Below, piece after piece: positions 50,493 through 61,974 of a stretch of DNA of 64,000 nt (the first letter of the stretch is position 1; every line of letters begins with the position of its first letter). Both the position numbers and the translations under genes were made by a program. The stretch is from Chitinophagaceae bacterium (GTDB taxonomy: Bacteria; Bacteroidota; Bacteroidia; Chitinophagales; Chitinophagaceae): positions 1-64,000 of the forward strand of contig JALHNJ010000011.1 in assembly GCA_022843585.1 (NCBI GenBank). The letters are read 5' to 3'. The notes beneath the pieces are model-generated. The model did not search any database and was not told where the DNA came from. It saw only the letters and a program-made list of their open reading frames with translations.

Positions 50493-50822
50493 ATGGGCTT
50501 AACAAAATCAGAAATATTTACTCCAAAGCAAAATAAACTGGCTTTAGTGCTAAAAGCACTGGCACATCCTGCACGGATTGCTATTATTCAGCATTTGGTG
50601 AAAGCTCAAGCCTGTATTTGTGGCGACTTGGTAGAAGAATTAGGATTAGCACAGGCCACCATTTCACAACATTTGAAAGAGTTAAAGAACATTGGCATTA
50701 TAAAAGGATGTGTTGAAGGCACAAGTGTAAGCTACTGTATTGACGAAAAGGTTTGGCAGCAGGTGAAGAAAGAATTTGAAATATTCTTTGTTGCCTATAG
50801 CATAAAGGAAGGGTGTTGTTGA
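50493..50822 (+). CDS. arsR: ArsR-family repressor, CICGDL type
   Basis: The product has 109 residues: an ArsR winged helix with ALAHPARIAIIQHLVKAQACICGDLVEELGLAQATISQHLKEL. Cys41 and Cys43 form the sensor pair, and the C-terminus ends GCC, which could add thiolates for As(III)/Sb(III). Its own promoter and that of the next operon carry matching palindromes, so it probably controls both. The closest analogy is arsenite-sensing ArsR. Confidence 0.9.
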   Translation: MGLTKSEIFTPKQNKLALVLKALAHPARIAIIQHLVKAQACICGDLVEELGLAQATISQHLKELKNIGIIKGCVEGTSVSYCIDEKVWQQVKKEFEIFFVAYSIKEGCC

Positions 50823-50840
50823 TTTTTTTTATCAATAATC

Positions 50841-50856
50841 ATCGGTATATTACGAT
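50841..50856 (+). promoter_or_regulatory. Operator copy before the DUF6428 operon
   Basis: ATCGGTATATTACGAT; its reverse complement matches the core of the 50473-50490 operator at 14 of 16 positions. It lies 60 bases before the next gene. Confidence 0.65.
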
Positions 50857-50915
50857 TGAGTTGTTAGAAAAATAATGTATAAGCAATTACATCAAGTATA
50901 ATAAATAAACACAAA

Positions 50916-51386
50916 ATGAAATTATCAGAAATCAAGAGACATCTTGCAACAGCCGAGACAATAAATTTTAGATTACCATCAGGGGCTTATGTTCCCGAGA
51001 ATTTTCACGTTACAGAAATTGGACTTGTTACAAGACACTTTATTGATTGCGGTGGTACAGAACGTCTTGAAAAAGTTGTAAACTTTCAGCTTTTCGATGC
51101 CAATGATTTTGAGCATCGTTTAAAACCACAAAAGCTAATAAAAATTATTACTCTTTCTGAGGATAAATTAGGTATAGGTGATTTCGAAATTGAAGTAGAA
51201 TATCAATCAGAAACAATCAGTAAATACGGTTTGCATTTTAGCGGGAAAGATTTCCAGCTTGTTCCTAAACATACCGCTTGCCTGGCAAGCGATGCCTGCG
51301 GCATTCCAACAGTAAAACAAAAAGTTCAATTAATAGAGTTACAAAAAACAAAGGAAAGATGCACTCCGGGTGCAGGCTGTTGCTAA
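50916..51386 (+). CDS. DUF6428-like protein of the arsenic-type regulon
   Basis: The 156 residues begin MKLSEIKRHLATAETINFRLPSGAYVPENFHVTEIGLVTRHFIDCGGT, the usual start of this family, and end with Cys-bearing segments (CLASDACG and CTPGAGCC). There is no known activity. Two C-terminal Cys groups suggest metalloid binding. It is the first gene of the operon downstream of ArsR and is followed 11 bases later by a channel gene. Confidence 0.7.
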   Translation: MKLSEIKRHLATAETINFRLPSGAYVPENFHVTEIGLVTRHFIDCGGTERLEKVVNFQLFDANDFEHRLKPQKLIKIITLSEDKLGIGDFEIEVEYQSETISKYGLHFSGKDFQLVPKHTACLASDACGIPTVKQKVQLIELQKTKERCTPGAGCC

Positions 51387-51397
51387 ATCGAACAGAG

Positions 51398-52048
51398 ATG
51401 AAAAAATATATCGCAGAAGTCATCGGCACATTTGCCTTAGTTTTTTGCGGAACCGGCGCAATAATTATTAACCAGGAAACTGGGGGCACTATTACTCATG
51501 TAGGAATAGCTATAACTTTTGGTTTAATAGTTATGGTAATGATTTATTCATTAGGTGGGATTTCAGGAGCACATCTTAATCCTGCCGTAAGTATTGCTTT
51601 TACAATTGCAAAACGGTTTCCTTTAAAAGAATTATTGCCATATATAATTAGTCAAAGCATTGGAGCAATACTTGCAAGTATTATTCTGAAGTATTTGTTT
51701 CCGGCAAACCAATTTTTGGGTGCCACCATCCCGCATGGCAGTGTATCACAATCTTTCATTTTAGAATTTCTGCTAACCTTCTTTCTGATGTTGGTTATTA
51801 TCAATGTAGCTACAGGCAGTAAAGAACAGGGAATGTTTGCTGGTTTGGCAATTGGTTCAACTGTTTTGTTGGAAGCAATGTTTGCAGGCCCAATTAGTGG
51901 AGCATCAATGAATCCTGCCCGTTCACTTGCCCCGGCAATCATTTCTGGTCACATAGAACATTTGTGGGTTTACTTAACGGCAACAATTATCGGGGCGGCG
52001 GCGGCAATACCACTTTGGAAATATTTATCAAATAATTCAACCAAATAA
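51398..52048 (+). CDS. Aquaporin/aquaglyceroporin (MIP family)
   Basis: The 216 residues from MKKYIAEVIGTFALVFCGTGA have six TM helices and both half-helix NPA motifs: GAHLNPAVSIAF and GASMNPARSLAP. The longer frame upstream overlaps the previous gene and lacks family character. In ArsR regulons, channels such as AqpS pass As(OH)3 downhill out of the cell. Whether this one passes water, glycerol or arsenite cannot be read safely, but the ArsR operator upstream favours arsenite or a similar neutral metalloid. Confidence 0.9.
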   Translation: MKKYIAEVIGTFALVFCGTGAIIINQETGGTITHVGIAITFGLIVMVMIYSLGGISGAHLNPAVSIAFTIAKRFPLKELLPYIISQSIGAILASIILKYLFPANQFLGATIPHGSVSQSFILEFLLTFFLMLVIINVATGSKEQGMFAGLAIGSTVLLEAMFAGPISGASMNPARSLAPAIISGHIEHLWVYLTATIIGAAAAIPLWKYLSNNSTK

Positions 52049-52053
52049 TAAAA

Positions 52054-52827
52054 ATGAGAATCGCATTATTTTCCGACATCCATGCTAATCTTCCTGCACT
52101 GGACGCCTGTTTAAAAAGTATAGAAGAACAAAAAACCGATGCCATTTATTGCCTCGGCGATTTGGTAGGTTACAATATCTGGCCAAATGAAGTAATTAAT
52201 GAAATAAGAAAAAGAGGAATACCAACCATTGCAGGTAATTATGACCAGGGTATTGGCTTAATGAGTGATGAATGTGGATGTGCTTACAAAACAGAACCGG
52301 AAAAAGATATGGGTAAAATCTCCATATCATTTACAAATTCAATTGTGAAGCCAGAAGAAAGAAAATACCTGAGAACATTACCTGCACATATCAAAGTAGA
52401 GTTTCAGTTAAACAATGATAAGCTGAACTTATTATTAGTACATGGCAGCCCAAGAAAGATAAATGAGTATTTATTTGAAGATAGGGAAGAAAAAAGTCTT
52501 TACCGGATTATGGAGCAGGCCGATGCCGATATAATGTGCTTTGGTCATACACATAAACCTTACTACAGGATATTGCCAACAGAGCAAACAGAAAATCCAC
52601 ACTACCGTCATGCAATAAACATTGGTTCAGTGGGTAAACCAAAAGATAATAACCCTAAAGGCTGTTATGTAATACTCACAATCAATCCTGAAAGTTCAAT
52701 CACTAACAAGGACGCAGTACAGGTTGAATTTATAAGATTTGATTATGATGTAGAAAAAGCCGCTAAAGCAGTTGAAGATAGCCCGCTTCCGAATGAATAT
52801 GCTGATATGTTGAGAAAAGGATATTAA
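52054..52827 (+). CDS. Calcineurin-like metallophosphoesterase
   Basis: The 257 residues contain the five family motifs in order: SDIHANLPAL, CLGDLVGYNIWP, GNYDQ, VHGSPR and GHTHKPY; together they bind two metal ions and cleave phosphoesters. It resembles YfcE-type phosphodiesterases. It lies 5 bases after the aquaporin gene, so it is co-transcribed with it. The link to metalloid defence is unknown; arsenate or arsenylated metabolites are a possible but untested target. Confidence 0.85.
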   Translation: MRIALFSDIHANLPALDACLKSIEEQKTDAIYCLGDLVGYNIWPNEVINEIRKRGIPTIAGNYDQGIGLMSDECGCAYKTEPEKDMGKISISFTNSIVKPEERKYLRTLPAHIKVEFQLNNDKLNLLLVHGSPRKINEYLFEDREEKSLYRIMEQADADIMCFGHTHKPYYRILPTEQTENPHYRHAINIGSVGKPKDNNPKGCYVILTINPESSITNKDAVQVEFIRFDYDVEKAAKAVEDSPLPNEYADMLRKGY

Positions 52828-52845
52828 TACACTAAAATTTTAATC

Positions 52846-53226
52846 ATGAATTTTCCTCAAAATCTCAAATACTCAAAGGAACACACCTGGTTATTGGTTG
52901 AAGGCGATACAGGTACAATCGGCATTACTGAATTTGCTCAAAGTGAATTAGGAGAAATTGTATATGTTGACTTACCAAACACTGGAAAGTCATTTAAACA
53001 GGATGAAGTTTTTGGTTCAGTAGAGGCGATTAAAACTGTCAGTGATTTATTTATGCCAGTCTCTGGCAATGTAATTGAAATTAATAAAGATGTAGTGCAG
53101 CAACCTGCATTGGTAAATGAATCTCCATTTGAAAAGGGATGGATGCTGAAAATTAAAATCACCCATGCAGATGAAATAAACAACCTGCTTACGTCAGAAC
53201 AATACCAGCAATTATCCGGTCAATAA
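52846..53226 (+). CDS. gcvH: Glycine cleavage system H protein
   Basis: The product has 126 residues with a typical start (YSKEHTWLLVEGDTGTIGITEFAQSELGEIVYVDLP). GSVEAIKTVSDLFMPVSG carries the lipoyl-Lys site. In glycine breakdown it shuttles the aminomethyl group between P and T proteins; no gcvP, gcvT or lipoate gene is nearby. Its place as the last gene of an ArsR-type operon is odd: a lipoyl dithiol is a known As(III) target, so a spare or special H protein may matter there. Confidence 0.9.
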   Translation: MNFPQNLKYSKEHTWLLVEGDTGTIGITEFAQSELGEIVYVDLPNTGKSFKQDEVFGSVEAIKTVSDLFMPVSGNVIEINKDVVQQPALVNESPFEKGWMLKIKITHADEINNLLTSEQYQQLSGQ

Positions 53227-53235
53227 TACATTGTA

Positions 53236-53370
53236 TCAGATTTTAAAACCATCAGATACTAATATCGGGCAATTATCTTCCGGCAATTCAGGGTCACAAT
53301 CATCTGCACATTTATTTACTCCATTCGGCAGCAGAGTTCTGTCATCCAGAAAGTCAGTTTGTGATGCCAT
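53236..53370 (-). CDS. Possible 44-residue acidic Cys protein downstream of mntR-like gene
   Basis: An ATG at 53370 lies 9 bases after the regulator's stop on the same strand and opens 44 codons: acidic overall, with NKCADDCDPELPEDNC (three Cys, several Asp/Glu), a plausible metal-binding layout. It lacks a clear Shine-Dalgarno, as is usual here. It would be co-transcribed with the repressor. Confidence 0.45.
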   Translation of the reverse strand: MASQTDFLDDRTLLPNGVNKCADDCDPELPEDNCPILVSDGFKI

Positions 53371-53379
53371 TTAACAAGC

Positions 53380-54036
53380 TTATAGTTTTTCTACTAAAAG
53401 TCTGTCACAAACAATATGGCTTAATGTATCACTACCTTTTTTATTATGGCTAACTGTCATACTGCCATCAAATTTTTCAACAGTTTTTATTTTTAATTTT
53501 ACCCCAAGGGAAAGTTCACGAAGATTTAGGAATTTTAAAAAATCGTCTGTTGTATGAATAACTGCCGCCAATCTTACAGTGTCCCCCTCTTTGCAACTAC
53601 TTAACTTTTCATATTTTATCCATTCCATTTTACCGGTCTTATCCGGAATGGGTGAACCGTGTGGGTCTATTTTAGGATAACCCAAAAGAGCATCCATCCT
53701 TTCAAAGAAGTTTGGTGAATGAAGATGTTCTATCTGTTCTGCTATTTCATGTACTTCTTCCCAACCGAATCCCATTTTTTGAACCAGGAACATTTCAGTA
53801 AGACGATGTTTACGAATAATTAAACCTGCTTCTCTTTTGCCTTTCTCAGTTAGCCGGAGTGGTTTATAACTTTCATAATGAACCAACTTCTTTTCAGACA
53901 ACTTTTTCATCATACTATTGACAGTCGGCATTTTTATACCTAATTGCTTGCTGAGTTCATTAGCACTTACCTCACCTTTATCAGCAGATAGATTAAAAAG
54001 TGCCTTTAAATAATTTTCTTCTGTGTAAGAGTGCAT
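53380..54036 (-). CDS. mntR-like: MntR/DtxR-family metal-dependent repressor
   Basis: The 218 residues have an N-terminal winged helix (MPTVNSMMKKLSEKKLVHYESY), a dimer and metal domain (HRLTEMFLVQKMGFGWEEVHEIAEQIEHLHS) and a C-terminal FeoA/SH3-like domain. The metal-site position that is Cys102 in DtxR reads Glu100 here, as in Mn-sensing MntR, with Glu103 and His104 following; the position of MntR Asp8 is Asn8. This points to Mn(II), perhaps also Fe(II). Its promoter and the divergent one each carry an operator. It should block both when metal is ample. Confidence 0.9.
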   Translation of the reverse strand: MHSYTEENYLKALFNLSADKGEVSANELSKQLGIKMPTVNSMMKKLSEKKLVHYESYKPLRLTEKGKREAGLIIRKHRLTEMFLVQKMGFGWEEVHEIAEQIEHLHSPNFFERMDALLGYPKIDPHGSPIPDKTGKMEWIKYEKLSSCKEGDTVRLAAVIHTTDDFLKFLNLRELSLGVKLKIKTVEKFDGSMTVSHNKKGSDTLSHIVCDRLLVEKL

Positions 54037-54040
54037 TTGG

Positions 54041-54127
54041 CAAAGGTAAATAATAGCTTAGAGTCTTCAAAGTAAGATTAAATAGATAATAATAAATTTG
54101 TTAGATGACTCTAAGTTATTACTTTTG
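54041..54127. promoter_or_regulatory. Divergent promoters with two MntR/DtxR operators
   Basis: Minus strand: TTTG (54071-54068), 19 bases, TACCTTTG (54048-54041), then ATG 54036. Plus strand: TTTG (54097-54100), 19 bases, TACTTTTG (54120-54127), then ATG 54153. Operator TTAGATGACTCTAA (54101-54114) sits directly after the plus -33; the related TTAGAGTCTTCAAA (54058-54071) covers the minus -33. Thus both promoters place one operator between the -33 and -7 elements. Confidence 0.85.
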
Positions 54128-54152
54128 TGGATATCACTTAATTATTTAGGCA

Positions 54153-55352
54153 ATGAAAAAAATATATATTGTGATTGCTTGTATAGTGGGGGCGGTAATG
54201 CTGATACAAGCCTGTTCAAAGTTACATCCCGGTGCCCCGACTGATGATGAGCTTTTGGATGGGCCTGTAACAGGGCTTTCATACGAACAAAACAGGCAAT
54301 TTTTAGCGGGCGATGTTGCTTTTAATGATGAGATATTTACCGCTCAAACGGGGCTGGGTTCCATTTTTGTAGCCTCAAGTTGTGGGAGTTGCCATGCTGG
54401 GGATGGCAAAGGACATCCATTCACAACCCTTACAAGATTTGGCCAGGTAGATAGCACAGGTAACAACTTTCTTCACTTAGGCGGACCGCAACTGCAAAAC
54501 AAGGCCTTACCCGGTTTTACTCCGGAGCAAATACCAGCAGGTGCAACTTTTTCAAAATTTACACCACCTGCAAATACGGGGTTAGGTTTTTTAGAGTTTG
54601 TAACAGATGCCTCAATCCTCGCAATGGCAGACCCCACAGATGCTAATGGTGATGGGATTTCAGGTGTACCAAATTGGAATTATCCACCCAATTTTGTTAC
54701 AATCCCTTCCAATTCTATTTCACTAAATGGTAAATACATTCACCGGTTTGGTAAGAAGGCGGCAGCTTTTAATTTATTACATCAAACTGTTAACGCTTAT
54801 AATCAGGATATGGGTATTACCTCATCTTTTTTTCTGAAAGATGTTTATTCAGGATTAGATATAGACCCGGAAGTTTCCAATCAAACTGTGCAGAACGTTG
54901 TATTTTATTTGCAAACACTAAAAACACCTGTTCAGCGTAATCCGGAAGATGCAGAAGTGATACAAGGAAAGAACATTTTTATACAAGCTGGTTGCGAAAG
55001 CTGTCATAAGCAAACTTTACAAACAGGCTTTTCTCCTATTGCTGCATTATCAAACAAATCATTTCATCCATACACAGATATGCTTTTGCATGATATGGGT
55101 TCCGCCTTAGATGATGGCTATACAGAGGGGAGTGCAAAAACATTTGAATGGCGTACACCGCCATTGTGGGGTTTAGGATTGTCGCCTAATTCACAAGGAG
55201 GACAGTATTTCCTATTGCATGACGGCAGAGCAAGAACCATAGAAGATGCAATACAATTGCATGGTGGAGAAGCTTCACAAAGTAAAAATAAATTCAACCA
55301 ATTATCAAACGCAGATAGAAAAGCTCTGCTTAAATTTTTAAAATCTTTATAG
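54153..55352 (+). CDS. Di-haem c-type lipoprotein oxidoreductase (DHOR/DUF1111 family)
   Basis: The product has 399 residues with a lipobox ending in Cys21 (LIQAC). Two haem c motifs: CGSCH (77-81) and CESCH (281-285), in an arrangement related to di-haem peroxidases. The family ending YFLLHDGRARTIEDAIQLHGGEA is clear. It is periplasm- or surface-exposed and could move electrons to or from a metal. DUF1111 proteins are known neighbours of imelysin genes in iron-related operons; here the partners are a Rieske protein and a porin instead. MntR-type operator control implies expression under metal shortage. Confidence 0.85.
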   Translation: MKKIYIVIACIVGAVMLIQACSKLHPGAPTDDELLDGPVTGLSYEQNRQFLAGDVAFNDEIFTAQTGLGSIFVASSCGSCHAGDGKGHPFTTLTRFGQVDSTGNNFLHLGGPQLQNKALPGFTPEQIPAGATFSKFTPPANTGLGFLEFVTDASILAMADPTDANGDGISGVPNWNYPPNFVTIPSNSISLNGKYIHRFGKKAAAFNLLHQTVNAYNQDMGITSSFFLKDVYSGLDIDPEVSNQTVQNVVFYLQTLKTPVQRNPEDAEVIQGKNIFIQAGCESCHKQTLQTGFSPIAALSNKSFHPYTDMLLHDMGSALDDGYTEGSAKTFEWRTPPLWGLGLSPNSQGGQYFLLHDGRARTIEDAIQLHGGEASQSKNKFNQLSNADRKALLKFLKSL

Positions 55353-55354
55353 GA

Positions 55355-55801
55355 GTGGATAGAAAGAACTTTATCAAAAGCTGCGGGTTTGCCTGTATTG
55401 GAGGCACGGCAATGGCTGCTGTATTTCAAAGTTGCACAACTGTTAAAATTTTGAGTGGTCAGATTACCGGAGATGATTTGATTGTGCCTGTTACAGATTT
55501 TGAAACAAGAGCAGGAAATGAAAAATATTTTAAAAAATATATAGTAGTGCAAAATGACCTTTTACAGTATCCCATTTGTGTGTACCGATTTAATGAAAAT
55601 GAATACGCAGCCTTGTGGATGCGGTGCACTCACCAGGGAGCAGAACTGCAGGTATTTGGAGATAAACTGCAATGCCCTGCACATGGAAGTGAGTTTAGCA
55701 ACAAGGGGGTGGTACAAAATGGTCCGGCTGATAATACACTAAGAACCTTCCCTGTTACTATTGAAAAAAACCAGCTTAAAATTTCCCTGAAAGCGATATG
55801 A
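55355..55801 (+). CDS. Rieske [2Fe-2S] protein
   Basis: The product has 148 residues from a GTG (55355) with AGGA just before it, 2 bases after the haem gene. The cluster ligands are CTHQGAEL (Cys91, His93) and CPAHGSEF (Cys107, His110). The N-terminus (IKSCGFACIGGTAMAAVFQSC) is a signal or lipoprotein-type segment. No oxygenase partner is present, so electron transfer with the di-haem protein is likely. It overlaps the porin gene by four bases. Confidence 0.85.
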   Translation: MDRKNFIKSCGFACIGGTAMAAVFQSCTTVKILSGQITGDDLIVPVTDFETRAGNEKYFKKYIVVQNDLLQYPICVYRFNENEYAALWMRCTHQGAELQVFGDKLQCPAHGSEFSNKGVVQNGPADNTLRTFPVTIEKNQLKISLKAI

Positions 55802-57027
55802 CAAGAACATTTGTTATTACAACTATCATTCTATTTTCCTGTATTAGATTGCAGGCACAAATAGACCCTGCATTATTAAGACGTATTCCGAAAGACACAG
55901 TTAAACAAACGATGAATATGGATGCAGTTTATAACAGGCCCTTTGTGTCAGTGGGAAAACTGCCGGTTTCATTAGGCGGGTACATGGAAGCAAACTGGCA
56001 GCATTTAGGAACGGATGGCGTTTCAGAAGGACACCAGTTTCAATTCAGAAGGATGACTCTATTCGTTTCTTCTACTATCGGTAAACGGTTAAAATTTTTA
56101 AGTGAAATAGAATTTGAAGAGGGTGGTAAGGAAATAGCCATAGAATTTGCTGCACTTGATATCGAATTGCACCCATTACTTAATCTTAGAGGCGGTGTGA
56201 TATTAAATCCTATTGGTGCTTTTAATCAAAATCACGATGGCCCTAAATGGGAATTTACTGACAGGCCAATTTCAGCTACACAAATGTTACCGGCTACATG
56301 GAGTAATGCAGGTTTTGGACTATACGGTAAACATTATAGTAAGGATTGGATGTTTGGCTATGAAGCCTACCTTTCGGGAAGCTTTGATAATTCTATCATT
56401 GATAATTCTGAAAACAAAACCTTTCTGCCGGCTGCAAAAAAAAATCCTGAGCGATTTGAGGAAATAAATAGTGGCCTTCCTTTGTTTACTGGAAAAGTAG
56501 CGGTCCGAAATAATAAAATTGGTGAGTTAGGTTTATCATATATGGGTGGTGTGTACAACAAATTTCAGGATGATGGTTTACAGATAGATGATAAAAGGCG
56601 GGTGAATGTTTTTGCAATTGATTTCAATAGCACATTGCCCAGGCTTAATACATTTATAACAGGTGAATGGGCATGGATAAAAGTAAATGTGCCATCAACC
56701 TTTACTCAGCAGTATGGTAATAAACAGCAAGGAGGTTTTGTGGATATTGTTCAACCATTAGTAAAGAAGCGAATTTTAGGATGGGATAAAGCAACCGTAA
56801 ACCTCGCCTGCCGAATAGAATATGTTGATTGGAATGTAGGCAAATTCACAAGTACCGGAACTAATATCGGCGAAAATATTTGGAGTATCATGCCTGCTAT
56901 TAGTTTCAGGCCAACGGCGCAAACGGTATTAAGGTTAAACTATCGCCACCAACAACAAAAAGATATTTTGGGCAATCCACCGGCAAAAACAGGCGGCTTT
57001 ATTTTTGGGATTTCCACGTACTTCTAA
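55798..57027 (+). CDS. Porin of the phosphate-selective O/P type
   Basis: The product has 409 residues: a signal peptide to about residue 20 (LQAQ), then a beta-barrel with alternating strands (GYMEANWQHL, FQFRRMTLFVSSTIGKRLKFLSEIEFEEGGKEIAIEFAALDIE) and a terminal aromatic residue (ISTYF), matching the OprO/P-like porin family. It would let a small solute cross the outer membrane. Tight coupling (ATGA) with the Rieske gene makes it part of the MntR-controlled redox operon. Confidence 0.8.
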   Translation: MTRTFVITTIILFSCIRLQAQIDPALLRRIPKDTVKQTMNMDAVYNRPFVSVGKLPVSLGGYMEANWQHLGTDGVSEGHQFQFRRMTLFVSSTIGKRLKFLSEIEFEEGGKEIAIEFAALDIELHPLLNLRGGVILNPIGAFNQNHDGPKWEFTDRPISATQMLPATWSNAGFGLYGKHYSKDWMFGYEAYLSGSFDNSIIDNSENKTFLPAAKKNPERFEEINSGLPLFTGKVAVRNNKIGELGLSYMGGVYNKFQDDGLQIDDKRRVNVFAIDFNSTLPRLNTFITGEWAWIKVNVPSTFTQQYGNKQQGGFVDIVQPLVKKRILGWDKATVNLACRIEYVDWNVGKFTSTGTNIGENIWSIMPAISFRPTAQTVLRLNYRHQQQKDILGNPPAKTGGFIFGISTYF

Positions 57028-57092
57028 TTGACCCTTAAAGTATTGTATTCTTTGCAACCATGTGGCAAGATTCTTCTTTTCCACAATTGTAC

Positions 57093-57100
57093 TATATTTG
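57093..57100 (+). promoter_or_regulatory. -7 element, nearly leaderless DUF6660 transcript
   Basis: TATATTTG is a perfect TAnnTTTG element six bases before the ATG at 57107. No TTTG lies at the usual -33 distance, so an activator may be needed. Confidence 0.6.
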
Positions 57101-57106
57101 CACCTG

Positions 57107-57424
57107 ATGAAATTTATCTTCTTCATAATGGGCTTTTTCTTACTTTACCTGTCCTGCCTCCCATGCGGCGATAGCAAGGAGTGTAATGTAAAGGCTCAGA
57201 CACAAATTTCAGCTACAGATAATCATCAGCAACATCAACACGATACCGAATCCTGTACGCCATTTTGCACTTGTTCCTGCTGTGCAGCGGCTGGATTCTA
57301 TATGCCAGCCTCTAAAGCACAGGTCAATAAAATAGTATTTCAGTCAAAGAAATACGAACTCTACAACATTACCTGCAATACCGAAGCACATTCTTCTATC
57401 TGGCAGCCTCCTAAGTTGTCTTAA
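57107..57424 (+). CDS. DUF6660-type small secreted Cys/His protein
   Basis: The 105 residues have a signal-type N-terminus (FFIMGFFLLYLSCLPC). The mature part contains CGDSKEC, HQQHQHDTESC, CTPFCTCSCC and the conserved end SSIWQPPKLS. The family occurs at the head of Czc-type operons in Bacteroidota. Its nine or so Cys and His cluster suggest metal binding in the periplasm. The start is fixed by the promoter position; a longer frame from 57062 is rejected. Confidence 0.8.
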   Translation: MKFIFFIMGFFLLYLSCLPCGDSKECNVKAQTQISATDNHQQHQHDTESCTPFCTCSCCAAAGFYMPASKAQVNKIVFQSKKYELYNITCNTEAHSSIWQPPKLS

Positions 57425-57654: not shown

Positions 57655-60600
57655 ATGCTCAATAAAATAATTCATTTCAGTATAAAACATAAACTCATCA
57701 TAGGGTTAATGACGCTGGCGCTCATCGTTTGGGGTGTATGGAGTGCTGCCAAACTGCCCCTTGATGCCGTACCGGATATTACCAATAACCAAGTGCAGAT
57801 AATTACACTTACCCCAACATTAGCAGCACAGGAAACAGAACAGTTGGTTACTTATCCTATCGAGCAAAGCCTTGCCAACCTTCCTGATTTGGAAGAAATG
57901 CGTTCAATTTCAAGATTTGGTTTGTCAGTAATTACGGTAGTATTTCATGATGACATTGACATCTATTTTGCCCGTCAGCTAATCAACGAAAAACTAAAAG
58001 AGGCAGAAGAAAAAATTCCAAAAGGAATTGGTACGCCGGAATTAGCACCCGTAAGTACCGGTTTGGGAGAAATATACCAATATGTGATTCACCCAAAGAA
58101 AGGTGCAGAAAACAAATACTCTGCAATGGACTTACGTACTATGCAGGATTGGATTGTTGCAAGGCAATTATATGGAACGGCAGGTGTAGCAGAAGTGAAC
58201 AGCTTTGGCGGTTTACTGAAACAATATGAAGTAGCGGTAAATCCTTACCGCCTGAAAGCAATGAATGTAACCATTGCTGAAATATTTTCAGCATTAGAAA
58301 AGAACAATGAAAATACCGGCGGCGCATATATTGATAAAAAGCCTAATGCCTACTTCATCCGGGGTATTGGTTTAATCAGTTCAATGGATGATATAAAAAA
58401 CACTGTCATTAAAAAGGTAAATGATATTCCTGTTTTAGTAAAAGATGTGGCAGAGGTGCAATTAGGTAATGCAGTTCGTTATGGTTCTGTTACGTTCAAC
58501 GGAGAAAAGGAAGTAGTGGGTGGAATTGTAATGATGCTGAAAGGAGCTAATAGTGCAGCCGTGGTTGAACGGGTGAAAGCAAAAATGGAAATCATTAAAA
58601 AATCAATACCCGATGATGTGGAGATAGAGGCTTATGTTGACCGTACAAGTTTGGTTAATCGTGCTGTGGGAACAGTAAAAACAAACCTCATTGAAGGAGC
58701 TTTAATTGTATTGTTAGTACTTGTATTGTTCCTCGGCAACATCAGAGCCGGTTTAATTGTTGCGTCTGCCATTCCGCTCTCTATGCTGTTTGCATTGGGT
58801 ATGATGAATGTTTTTGGCGTAAGTGCCAACCTGATGAGTTTGGGTGCAATTGATTTTGGATTGATTGTAGATGGCGCAGTAATCATTGTGGAAGCAACAC
58901 TGCACTTTCTGGTGATAAAACATGTTGCCGGTAAACTTACCCAACAACAGATGGATGAAGCAGTGGAGACCAGTGCAAAAAAGATGATGAGTTCAGCAGC
59001 CTTCGGGCAAATTATCATACTGATTGTTTACTTACCCATCCTTTCGTTACAGGGGATTGAAGGAAAAATGTTCCGGCCAATGGCACAAACAGTTGGCTTT
59101 GCGATATTGGGAGCATTGATACTTTCTCTTACCTATATTCCTATGATGTCGGCATTATTCCTGTCTAAGAAAACGACCCATAAGAAAAATATTTCCGACA
59201 AATTAATGCACTTCTTTCAACGAGGATATTCTCCGCTTATACGTTGGGCTATCAAGATGAAATATGCAGTAGTAGGGGCAGCAGTTGGTTTGTTAGCCAT
59301 TGCATTAGTTGTTTTCGGAAGAATGGGCGGTGAATTTATTCCGCAGTTGCAGGAAGGTGATTATGCCTTTCACTGCATATTGCCACAGGGAACTTCACTA
59401 ACGCAAAGTGTAGAAACGTCCATGCAGGCGAGCCGCATCATCAAATCTTTTCCTGAAGTAAAAATGGTGGTAGGTAAAACAGGAAGTGCAGAGGTGCCAA
59501 CAGACCCAATGCCACCAGAAGCCACCGACCTTATTATTACACTGAAACCAAAAAGTGAATGGACTACTACAAAGGATTATAATAAGCTGGCGGAAATGAT
59601 GATGGAAAAATTAGAAGCTATTCCCGGCGTTTTCTTTGAAGCATCGCAACCGATACAGATGAGATTTAACGAATTGATGACCGGAGTACGGCAGGATGTA
59701 GCGATTAAAATATTTGGAGAAAACATTGATACACTTGCAGCTCTTGCTCCCCAGGTTGCAAAAATTGTTCAATCAGTAAAAGGAGCAACTGAACCACAGG
59801 TGGAAAGAACCACCGGATTGCCTCAAATCACAATTCAGTATGACCGGGCAAAGATTGCTGGCTATGGGTTGAATATTGAGGACATTAATCATACCATCAG
59901 TACAGCCTTCGCAGGCGAAGCCGCCGGTGTTGTTTTTGAGAATGAAAGAAAATTTGATTTGGTGGTAAGATTAGACAGTGCCAGCCGCACTTCCATTGAT
60001 GATGTAAGTAATTTATTTGTGGCAACTACTGATGGCAACCAAATTCCATTATCACAGGTAGCAACAGTTTCTTTTAAAGAAGGTCCTGCACAGATAAGCC
60101 GTGAAGATGGGAAGCGCAGAATTGTGGTAGGTTTTAACGTAAAAGGCCGTGATGTAGCCAGTGTAGTAACTGAAATACAGGAAAAACTGAATGCCGCAAA
60201 AATTCTTCCCACCGCTTATTATTATACTTATGGTGGGACATTTGAAAATTTACAGGAAGCATCAGCAAGATTGAAGATTGCAGTACCTGTGGCGTTGGCT
60301 TTAATTTTCCTTTTACTCTACTTCGCATTCGGCTCCATGAAAGAGGCATTGCTGATTTATACAGCCATTCCAATGAGTGCTATCGGTGGTGTATTCGCTT
60401 TACTAATAAGAGGAATGCCATTCAGCATTTCTGCAGGTGTGGGTTTCATTGCTTTGTTTGGTGTAGCGGTATTAAATGGCATTGTATTAATCAGCACATT
60501 TAACCAATTGGAGAAAGATGGAGTAAAAGACATCATACAAAGAGTATTAGAAGGAACCAAAATCCGGTTACGACCAGTGTTAATGACAGCTTCTGTTGCA

Positions 60601-61974
60601 GCTTTAGGTTTTATACCAATGGCATTGTCAACCGGTGCTGGTGCCGAAGTTCAAAAACCTTTGGCAACAGTAGTTATCGGCGGATTGATAACAGCAACAT
60701 TTCTTACACTGGTAGTGCTGCCATTGCTCTACATTATTTTTTCATCAAAAAGGAAAACGAAAATGAAGCCGATAGCTACAATCATAACAGCTATCTCTTT
60801 GCTGGTTTTGACTAATAATGTAAATGCACAACAGCCAGCAACCAGGAGAGTAACTGCTAATGAAGCCATCTCATTAGCAAAAAACAACTTGCAATATGAA
60901 ATAAATAATCAACAAATCATAAAGGGAAAAGCACAAATAACTACAGCAACAGCTTTTCAAAAAACCGGGGTATTTGCAGAAAATGAAGATATGCGGCCAA
61001 GCGATAATCAAGGCATCTTAAAAGTTGGCGTATCGCAAAGCATTGCATGGCCGGGTTTGTACAAAGCACAAAAGAACCTGTATAACGAACAGTTGAAATA
61101 TTACCAGGCAAATACAAGTGTCATTGAGTTGGATATTAAAAGGAACGTGAGAACTGCTTACTACCAGCTTTGGTACTTGCAGGATAAACAGCAACTATAT
61201 CACCGTTTAGACAGTATTTATAAATCATTGAATGATGCGGCTATTCTTAAAGTAAAAACAGGTGACAGTCCCGGATTGGATAGTATTGCCGCCAATGTAC
61301 GGATGAGTGAATTACAGGCATTGTTACAACAAATCAATAATGAAATTCAGATACAGCAGCAATCCCTGATGCAGTATTTCAATTCAAGTGAAATGATACT
61401 GCCTTTAATGACGCCGTTAGAAAAATTGCTAATGCCCGGTGGTGGCAACGACAGCCTGCATCCTGTACTTGCTTTACAATCTCAAAATATCAATATTGCG
61501 AATGCCGGTATTTCAGTTATTAAAAATGAAAATAAGCCTGACTTCTCTGGCCGCTTCTTCAGCCAGCGGTTATGGGGTGCTAAAGACCCCGTAAGCGGAT
61601 TTTCTGTGTCAGCAGCTTTTCCACTATTTGGTGCAAGTGCATACAGGAGCAAAGTAAAAGTTGCACAGGCCGAAATAGCCGTACAGCAGAAACAATACGA
61701 CTACGACAAGCAGGTTTATAATACCCGGCAATTACAAATGCAGCAGGAAGTGAGCAAAAACAGGAGTATGTTATCCTTTTATGAAACAACCGGGTTAAAG
61801 CAAGCTGATGAAATCATTAAAGCAGCTTCACTGGCATACCGTGCAGGAGAAATAAGTTTTGCGGAACTGGCACAGTTTCTTACCCAGGCCATAGAGATTC
61901 AAAAAAATTATTTGGAGAACCTGAATGCTTATAACCAGTCTGTCATTCAATACAACTATTACATCAATCAATAA
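57655..61974 (+). CDS. czcA-czcC fusion-like: CzcA-type RND permease fused to a TolC-type channel
   Basis: The product has 1,439 residues. Residues 1-1036 are a complete heavy-metal RND pump; TM4 is SLGAIDFGLIVDGAVIIVEA, the DFG form of Co/Zn/Cd (or Ni) pumps. Right after TM12, residues 1037-1060 (MKPIATIITAISLLVLTNNV, then NAQ) form a clean signal peptide, followed by a TolC-like helical protein to the end. AGGA lies eight bases before the internal ATG (60763), so the channel may also be translated separately. Otherwise the signal segment would act as TM13 and be cut by signal peptidase. The adaptor gene follows 11 bases later. Confidence 0.9.
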   Translation: MLNKIIHFSIKHKLIIGLMTLALIVWGVWSAAKLPLDAVPDITNNQVQIITLTPTLAAQETEQLVTYPIEQSLANLPDLEEMRSISRFGLSVITVVFHDDIDIYFARQLINEKLKEAEEKIPKGIGTPELAPVSTGLGEIYQYVIHPKKGAENKYSAMDLRTMQDWIVARQLYGTAGVAEVNSFGGLLKQYEVAVNPYRLKAMNVTIAEIFSALEKNNENTGGAYIDKKPNAYFIRGIGLISSMDDIKNTVIKKVNDIPVLVKDVAEVQLGNAVRYGSVTFNGEKEVVGGIVMMLKGANSAAVVERVKAKMEIIKKSIPDDVEIEAYVDRTSLVNRAVGTVKTNLIEGALIVLLVLVLFLGNIRAGLIVASAIPLSMLFALGMMNVFGVSANLMSLGAIDFGLIVDGAVIIVEATLHFLVIKHVAGKLTQQQMDEAVETSAKKMMSSAAFGQIIILIVYLPILSLQGIEGKMFRPMAQTVGFAILGALILSLTYIPMMSALFLSKKTTHKKNISDKLMHFFQRGYSPLIRWAIKMKYAVVGAAVGLLAIALVVFGRMGGEFIPQLQEGDYAFHCILPQGTSLTQSVETSMQASRIIKSFPEVKMVVGKTGSAEVPTDPMPPEATDLIITLKPKSEWTTTKDYNKLAEMMMEKLEAIPGVFFEASQPIQMRFNELMTGVRQDVAIKIFGENIDTLAALAPQVAKIVQSVKGATEPQVERTTGLPQITIQYDRAKIAGYGLNIEDINHTISTAFAGEAAGVVFENERKFDLVVRLDSASRTSIDDVSNLFVATTDGNQIPLSQVATVSFKEGPAQISREDGKRRIVVGFNVKGRDVASVVTEIQEKLNAAKILPTAYYYTYGGTFENLQEASARLKIAVPVALALIFLLLYFAFGSMKEALLIYTAIPMSAIGGVFALLIRGMPFSISAGVGFIALFGVAVLNGIVLISTFNQLEKDGVKDIIQRVLEGTKIRLRPVLMTASVAALGFIPMALSTGAGAEVQKPLATVVIGGLITATFLTLVVLPLLYIIFSSKRKTKMKPIATIITAISLLVLTNNVNAQQPATRRVTANEAISLAKNNLQYEINNQQIIKGKAQITTATAFQKTGVFAENEDMRPSDNQGILKVGVSQSIAWPGLYKAQKNLYNEQLKYYQANTSVIELDIKRNVRTAYYQLWYLQDKQQLYHRLDSIYKSLNDAAILKVKTGDSPGLDSIAANVRMSELQALLQQINNEIQIQQQSLMQYFNSSEMILPLMTPLEKLLMPGGGNDSLHPVLALQSQNINIANAGISVIKNENKPDFSGRFFSQRLWGAKDPVSGFSVSAAFPLFGASAYRSKVKVAQAEIAVQQKQYDYDKQVYNTRQLQMQQEVSKNRSMLSFYETTGLKQADEIIKAASLAYRAGEISFAELAQFLTQAIEIQKNYLENLNAYNQSVIQYNYYINQ

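Follow-up and report, generated by a model that had tools for sequence, protein, structure and literature searches.

We analyzed a 64,000-nucleotide stretch of DNA from a Chitinophagaceae bacterium (positions 1-64,000 of contig JALHNJ010000011.1, assembly GCA_022843585.1; hereafter the window), in which three adjacent genes encode a di-haem oxidoreductase of the DHOR/DUF1111 family (hereafter DHOR), a Rieske protein, and an outer-membrane beta-barrel, together called the trio. The best explanation, to which we assign a probability of about 0.68, is that the trio serves as an outer-membrane and periplasmic front end for the acquisition of Mn(II) and/or Fe(II), which would be repressed by a metal-loaded MntR/DtxR-type protein and switched on when metal is scarce. 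The metal-acquisition role had been proposed in an earlier note on this DNA; as a sequence-based prediction, it is backed by conservation of the trio, its membership in a metal regulon, and its linkage to importers. The genes are as follows:

53380..54036, minus strand: metal-dependent repressor of the DtxR/MntR family (mntR), 218 amino acids (aa), with helix-turn-helix, metal-binding/dimerization, and weak FeoA-like C-terminal domains by Pfam
54153..55352, plus strand: DHOR/DUF1111 di-haem oxidoreductase lipoprotein, 399 aa, with CxxCH at residues 77-81 and 281-285 and lipobox Cys21 (PF06537)
55355..55801, plus strand: Rieske [2Fe-2S] lipoprotein with a Tat-like signal, 148 aa, GTG start (PF00355)
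55798..57027, plus strand: porin-like outer-membrane beta-barrel, 409 aa, C-terminal Phe

According to open reading frame and profile scans, the repressor gene is divergent from the trio, whose order is DHOR, Rieske, and barrel. The tight junctions described in the earlier note are present: the DHOR stop codon ends at 55352 and the Rieske start lies at 55355, leaving 2 bases, and the Rieske and barrel genes share an ATGA at 55798-55801. Relatives show a DHOR-Rieske gap of 2 bases more often than any other spacing (25 of 77 pairs), and in most of them (63 of 73) the Rieske and barrel genes overlap by 4 bases. The start of the system at 53236 given in the earlier note is not retained, as the trio starts at 54153 and positions 53236-53379, which separate mntR from gcvH, are not part of the system.

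Conservation was examined in two sets of loci. The close set consists of the best 80 of 394 loci, which are related by descent and not independent, and the phylum sample consists of 296 genomes drawn evenly across Bacteroidota. In the latter, 34 genomes matched DHOR at E up to 1e-60, of which 5 were treated separately as a different DUF1111 type because only approximately residues 125-399 matched. A full-length, trio-type DHOR is thereby found in 29 of 296 genomes, the window's own included, or about one in ten. The phylum trio loci counted below are the 29 from the 28 genomes other than the window's own, one of which has two; the first 17 of these loci were partly picked for a nearby MntR, and the other 12 were added so that all 29 are counted. 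The Rieske gene accompanies DHOR in 80/80 close and 29/29 phylum loci, and the barrel gene in 76/80 and 28/29, respectively. Three of the four misses in the close set fall at contig ends, L025 being the true miss, and the single phylum miss, L120, is also at a contig end. An MntR-like gene lies within the locus in 11 of the 29 phylum loci, and the box TTAG-N6-CTAA stands at the start of the DHOR or MntR-like gene in 23. Moreover, 28 of the 29 trio genomes (all but G397) contain a DtxR-family gene, compared to 179 of the remaining 267 genomes (Fisher p = 0.0004, uncorrected for kinship). The proposal that the trio is conserved with MntR/DtxR-type control thus holds, with the box found in 74/80 close loci as well. 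Two named plasmid records annotate the trio merely as "di-heme oxidoredictase", Rieske, and hypothetical protein.

Promoters in Bacteroidota have a consensus of TTTG at -33 and TAnnTTTG at -7, separated by 19 bases. The following elements were assigned in the intergenic region, those of the promoters by match to this consensus:

54041..54048, minus strand: -7 element (TAnnTTTG) of the mntR promoter
54058..54071, minus strand: degenerate second operator TTAGAGTCTTCAAA with a single good half-site
54068..54071, minus strand: TTTG-like -33 element of the mntR promoter, 19 bases from its -7 element
54097..54100, plus strand: -33 element (TTTG) of the DHOR promoter, 19 bases from its -7 element
54101..54114, plus strand: MntR-type operator TTAGATGACTCTAA (TTAGN6CTAA), flanked by the DHOR promoter's -33 and -7 elements
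54120..54127, plus strand: -7 element (TAnnTTTG; TACTTTTG) of the DHOR promoter, 5 bases past the operator

The operator at 54101-54114 is placed as the earlier note states and is conserved: 74 of the 80 related loci have an exact TTAG-N6-CTAA no more than 120 bp from DHOR, compared to 0.5 expected from dinucleotide shuffles. It is found near DHOR irrespective of mntR, in 37/39 loci with mntR nearby and in 37/41 without, and TAnnTTTG follows within 28 bp of the box in 26 of the 74 loci versus 2.9 in shuffles. The mntR promoter mirrors the arrangement of the DHOR promoter, and a 24-nucleotide inverted repeat joins the two (arms 54048-54071 and 54101-54124), with 20 of 24 positions matched, a value reached in 0 of 300 dinucleotide shuffles. 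The matched second operator claimed at the mntR promoter therefore stands only in part; the divergent repeat is real, but the site within it at 54058-54071 is degenerate and keeps one half only. Of 12 close relatives examined, 3 show this mntR-side half-site; only the box on the DHOR side is well conserved.

The same class of box was then located at other genes. Among 198 genomes of the order, an ideal box, TTTAGACTWGTCTAAA, occurs in 9, compared to 2 for the reversed control. It lies ahead of MntR and a ZnuA/TroA-type binding protein, in that order, in L114 and L118, a ZnuA/TroA-type binding protein and an ABC ATPase in L117, MntR alone in L116, and TonB-dependent receptors in L111 and L113, so that 6 of the 9 ideal boxes have an MntR, ABC-importer, or TonB-receptor target. 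The target is ambiguous at L110, L112, and L115, the box at L115 being flanked by an Nramp gene, whose start is 204 bp away, and by a divergent gene for a chromate transporter at 43 bp. The genome of the window itself has a box 14 bp upstream of a second MntR gene, 39% identical to the window's, which is directly followed by a ZIP transporter gene (G000:C8:1000-2520; L106); this is probably an Mn/Fe uptake operon of the organism. A TonB-dependent receptor is also encoded behind an MntR-type box at G000:C1:1369498 (L107:4499-6819). Because the same box class precedes MntR, importers, and TonB receptors, we assign it to an Mn/Fe-type regulon, of which the trio is a predicted member. Altogether, MntR/DtxR-type control of the trio is predicted from a conserved box that overlaps the promoter core and from the occurrence of this box class before import genes. 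A search of the own genome with TTAGANNNNTCTAA allowing one mismatch returned 139 places versus 164 for the reversed control, i.e., no enrichment.

Two further features of this genome were noted. The L107 receptor contains a CxxC (NCSVCN) just ahead of or in the plug region, which recalls the CQNC motif of an MntR-controlled receptor of Stenotrophomonas maltophilia described in the excerpts of PMC13217887. The genome has one Nramp member, at C1:206410 (78 bits), distant from the trio.

The repressor belongs to the DtxR superfamily, with Pfam matches to PF01325 (4.7e-13) and PF02742 (1.7e-29) and a FeoA match below the cut-off, and its relatives in the Protein Data Bank (PDB) are metal-dependent regulators, including ScaR and SloR. 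Its scores fell below all cut-offs of the NCBIfam MntR equivalogs (142.6 versus 350, 63.2 versus 138, and 52.1 versus 153 bits), and a manganese-specific name was rejected on this ground. The metal ligands of Bacillus subtilis MntR are D8, E11, H77, E99, E102, and H103. In an alignment with this protein, the equivalents H77, E100, E103, and H104 of the repressor are invariant.

Linkage to importers was assessed against 17 hand-placed control windows of similar size from the first 17 phylum genomes, 16 on the same contig as the trio and one on another. Importer genes were found in 7 of the 29 phylum loci and in 0 of the 17 controls (one-sided chance of approximately 0.03, calculated by hand); FeoB accounts for 6 loci, one of which also has an ABC importer, and Nramp for 1. 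In L123, the genes for DHOR, Rieske, barrel, Nramp, and MntR follow one another on a single strand, while L129 contains FeoB, MntR, and the trio in order, then a ZnuA-type protein, an ABC ATPase, and an ABC-3 permease. The arrangement MntR, second DtxR-type protein, split FeoB, DHOR, Rieske, barrel recurs in L119-L122 and L125, with L120 ending after its Rieske gene; the split FeoB was identified by Pfam in L119 and L121, its N-terminal part by Pfam in L120 and L125, and the rest by BLAST. The second DtxR-type protein of L121 has a FeoA domain by Pfam. In the close set, Nramp stands beside MntR in L043 and L068, and ZIP beside MntR in L072. As a separate observation, MntR in L121 (5468-9470) is followed by a 339-aa protein with DtxR C-terminal and FeoA domains and, by eye, a likely N-terminal membrane segment, and FeoB is split there into separate GTPase and membrane genes.

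The DHOR protein matches PF06537 at 7.3e-67 over the C-terminal part of the model only, and PDB searches, profile searches included, returned short cytochrome-c matches only. As stated in the earlier note, it is a lipoprotein with two CxxCH sites: the lipobox Cys21 and both motifs are present, and two CxxCH sites are found in 80/80 relatives. The lipobox was recognized in 70/80 by a strict expression, which caught a neighboring cysteine in a few cases, and in 43 aligned sequences C21, the Cys and His residues of both CxxCH motifs, H313, H356, and H370 are invariant. Surface export of lipoproteins in Bacteroidota is known to require an acidic stretch directly past the lipid-carrying cysteine. 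At positions +2 to +6 of DHOR, at least three acidic residues were found in 0 of 79 sequences and two in 10 of 79. On this count, a periplasmic face is more likely than surface exposure, and the surface location envisaged in the earlier note is unlikely.

The Rieske protein matches PF00355 at 2.1e-13, and its relatives have an intact cluster motif in 76/77, a Tat-like motif in 58/77, and a lipobox in 76/77. It falls below the NCBIfam cut-offs for Rieske subunits of bc1/b6f complexes (Rieske_proteo TIGR01416, 24.1 versus 97.4 bits; a second model, 36.6 versus 154 bits). For the barrel, neither Pfam nor NCBIfam gave a match at 0.001, and a profile search found none in the PDB, so the earlier label of porin is upheld only to the extent of a weak, sub-threshold BBP2 porin signal, seen in 25 of 43 members; Porin_O_P appeared, also below the cut-off, in 2/43 at E up to 1. 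Its mean column identity is 68% over the 43 aligned sequences, many residues being invariant.

Among the closest known systems are the imelysin loci. According to the excerpts of PMC3143127, imelysins are tied to DUF1111 peroxidases and iron, and these Efe-like imelysin-DUF1111 operons share with the trio a DUF1111 di-haem protein and a context of metal starvation. We examined 3 of the 5 loci with the other DUF1111 type (L136-L138), and each has an imelysin gene and a barrel 25-31% identical to that of the trio. Unlike these, the trio loci lack imelysin (0/29 phylum and 0/80 close loci in a tblastn search at 1e-8 with two imelysin sequences as queries, in which L136-L138 were positive), and they have importer links in some lineages. 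Their predicted control also differs, an MntR-type box at the trio standing against the Fur reported for imelysin operons. A tree built from 46 DHORs places the trio together with the FeoB-, Nramp-, and ABC-linked forms in a single clade (100/99), to which neither the imelysin type nor Thermus belongs; FeoB-linked DHORs are among the deepest branches, in a tree with a midpoint root and a long Thermus branch. By sequence comparison, then, the trio appears related to the imelysin-DUF1111 loci yet distinct from them, which suggests one barrel-Rieske-di-haem core in two outfits, one with imelysin for iron and the other with MntR and divalent-metal importers. Two observations stand beside this. Rieske and barrel genes accompany the imelysin-type DUF1111 gene in L136:2598-7104 and L137:5788-10017, and they go unmentioned in the excerpts of PMC3143127; in Thermus thermophilus HB8 pTT27 (L139:3188-8083), a compact DUF1111 protein lies beside a hemin/iron ABC set with no annotated Rieske gene.

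For the trio, we envisage the following mechanism. A metal-loaded MntR/DtxR-type repressor would sit on the box over the DHOR promoter and be released under shortage of Mn or Fe. The barrel would admit the metal or a small complex of it across the outer membrane, and DHOR, as a di-haem enzyme, and the Rieske protein, as an electron carrier, both probably periplasmic lipoproteins, would keep the metal divalent or render it so, the form used by the linked importers. FeoB, Nramp, ZIP, and ABC-type importers take divalent ions, and for this reason we favor either reduction of the metal or its protection from oxidation. The least certain steps are the direction of electron flow and whether the electron acceptor is the oxidized metal or peroxide. 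A more specific version, which we regard as tentative and less likely than not, is that Rieske and DHOR are docked under the barrel, where they reduce incoming Mn(III/IV) or Fe(III) and pass the divalent metal to MntH, FeoB, ZIP, or MntABC; the trio would then be the manganese-side counterpart of imelysin/Efe, both being derived from one barrel-Rieske-di-haem core.

The main rival to redox action on metal is peroxide removal. In such a periplasmic peroxidase defense, DHOR would reduce H2O2 with electrons from Rieske, MntR control would answer the peroxide stress that arises when Mn/Fe enzymes fail, and the barrel would be a general porin. Pfam labels DHOR a putative peroxidase, the protein has the two c-type haem motifs that characterize bacterial di-haem peroxidases (CCP/MauG-like), and Mn shortage is described as a cause of oxidative stress in the excerpts of PMC9334652. 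However, a peroxidase would not need the barrel, which is retained in the operon in all but one of the phylum loci, and 7 of these loci also hold FeoB, Nramp, or ABC importers. We consider this explanation unlikely, though it outranks the remaining alternatives.

Several findings weigh against metal acquisition by the trio. An MntR-like gene is absent alongside in 18 of the 29 phylum loci, and the exact box is missing in 6 (L120, L121, L122, L126, L127, and L133). The stricter palindromic form, TTAGNYNNRNCTAA, is not matched by the window's own box and is not enriched in its genome, where it occurs at 6 places compared to 28 for the reversed control; of the three places examined, two are at metal-gene promoters and one is within a coding sequence (C4, L109). 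Importers are found in just 3/80 close loci, which is not notable alone, and 22 of the 29 phylum loci are without one. In the repressor, N8 and K11 replace D8 and E11 of B. subtilis MntR. For this reason the repressor may sense either Mn or Fe, and the trio, which adjoins FeoB as well as Nramp, may likewise not be specific for Mn over Fe. According to the excerpts of PMC9478572, ferric citrate raises mliR together with a TonB receptor from the same regulon in Bizionia argentinensis, a pattern unlike a simple starvation response. Lastly, heavy-metal efflux genes (RND, MerT-like, DUF6660) occur in 9/29 phylum loci versus 0/17 controls, and RND, P-type ATPase, MerT-like, or DUF6660 genes in 54/80 close loci.

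This efflux enrichment could reflect resistance islands that bring along a module for Mn/Fe rescue, or else the trio may contribute to tolerance directly. In the latter case, it would be an accessory of heavy-metal resistance islands, acting by redox detoxification or by resupply of Mn/Fe where Zn, Cd, Co, or Cu interfere with uptake. Its location beside efflux genes on plasmids is in line with this, namely RND and P-type ATPase genes in Haliscomenobacter and a CusA-type RND gene in Hymenobacter. Nevertheless, 20 of the 29 phylum loci are free of RND, MerT-like, and DUF6660 genes, P-type ATPases not having been queried there; moreover, the operator is of the MntR, i.e., starvation, type, and the deepest DHOR branches are in DtxR-FeoB operons. 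A tolerance role is therefore doubtful, more so than peroxide removal. ArsR-type genes occur in 15/80 close loci; a link to arsenic was considered and rejected, these genes being read as hitch-hiking within islands.

Di-haem enzymes near metal-acquisition proteins act in maturation in methanobactin/CorA loci. By this precedent, DHOR might, in the manner of MauG/MbnH, build a metal site by oxidizing a residue in either the Rieske protein or the barrel; the many invariant barrel residues speak for this. The intact Rieske cluster motif, on the other hand, fits an electron carrier better, and we regard this option as improbable. Least probable of all, and rejected because the Rieske protein scores far below the NCBIfam cut-off of TIGR01416, is that the genes encode parts of respiratory complex III, as the excerpts of PMC9478572 read a Rieske protein (BZARG_RS03005) and a cytochrome c (BZARG_RS03000), both listed in a qPCR figure, that fall together with metal-uptake genes in the mliR mutant of B. 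argentinensis, a pair whose homology to that of the trio is a guess; the lipoprotein signal, the operon with a barrel, and the MntR-type box also argue against it, and no cytochrome b match was found among the eight window proteins scanned, related loci not having been searched for it. The two Bizionia genes may be a DHOR-Rieske pair, as suggested by their adjacent locus tags.

Metal acquisition by the trio can also be compared with other known systems. In the excerpts of PMC9334652, which cover the work of Hohle 2011, MnoP of Bradyrhizobium is an outer-membrane Mn(II) channel, and MnoP and OmpU are tied to Mn uptake. The trio barrel would resemble MnoP as an outer-membrane channel for Mn uptake under Mn scarcity, a likeness of function; unlike the trio, MnoP has no redox partners mentioned in those excerpts. 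The MntR-boxed TBDR-pTFP module of S. maltophilia (excerpts of PMC13217887) combines a TonB receptor with a thioredoxin fold in a different phylum, whereas the trio is composed of porin-like, Rieske, and di-haem proteins. MntR/DtxR regulons with MntH, MntABC, or FeoB have the same box class and partly the same importer neighbors as the trio in Bacteroidota. No description of a Rieske/di-haem/porin operon under MntR turned up in searches of the open-licence PMC literature.

The surroundings of the trio in the window include further genes of note. A gene for a Cys/His-rich DUF6660 protein (57062-57424), a type found in 24/80 related loci, separates the barrel from a CusA-type RND gene. A single frame of 1439 codons (57655-61974) comprises a whole RND permease (ACR_tran, residues 5-1029) and an outer-membrane efflux protein (OEP) part (residues 1269-1438); judging from these domains, its predicted product is a permease-channel fusion. 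On the other side, an ArsR-like regulator, DUF6428, an aquaporin-like protein (by eye), a phosphoesterase, and glycine cleavage H protein are encoded consecutively at 50493-53226, and parts of this set reappear next to the trio in L002, L011, and L029.

The trio bears on how Mn and ferrous iron pass the outer membrane of Bacteroidota and whether they undergo redox change en route. A testable box, a three-gene set, and links to four importer families make this question of metal entry tractable. For the Rieske/cytochrome pair that falls alongside metal-uptake genes, the published assignment to complex III may also have to be revised.

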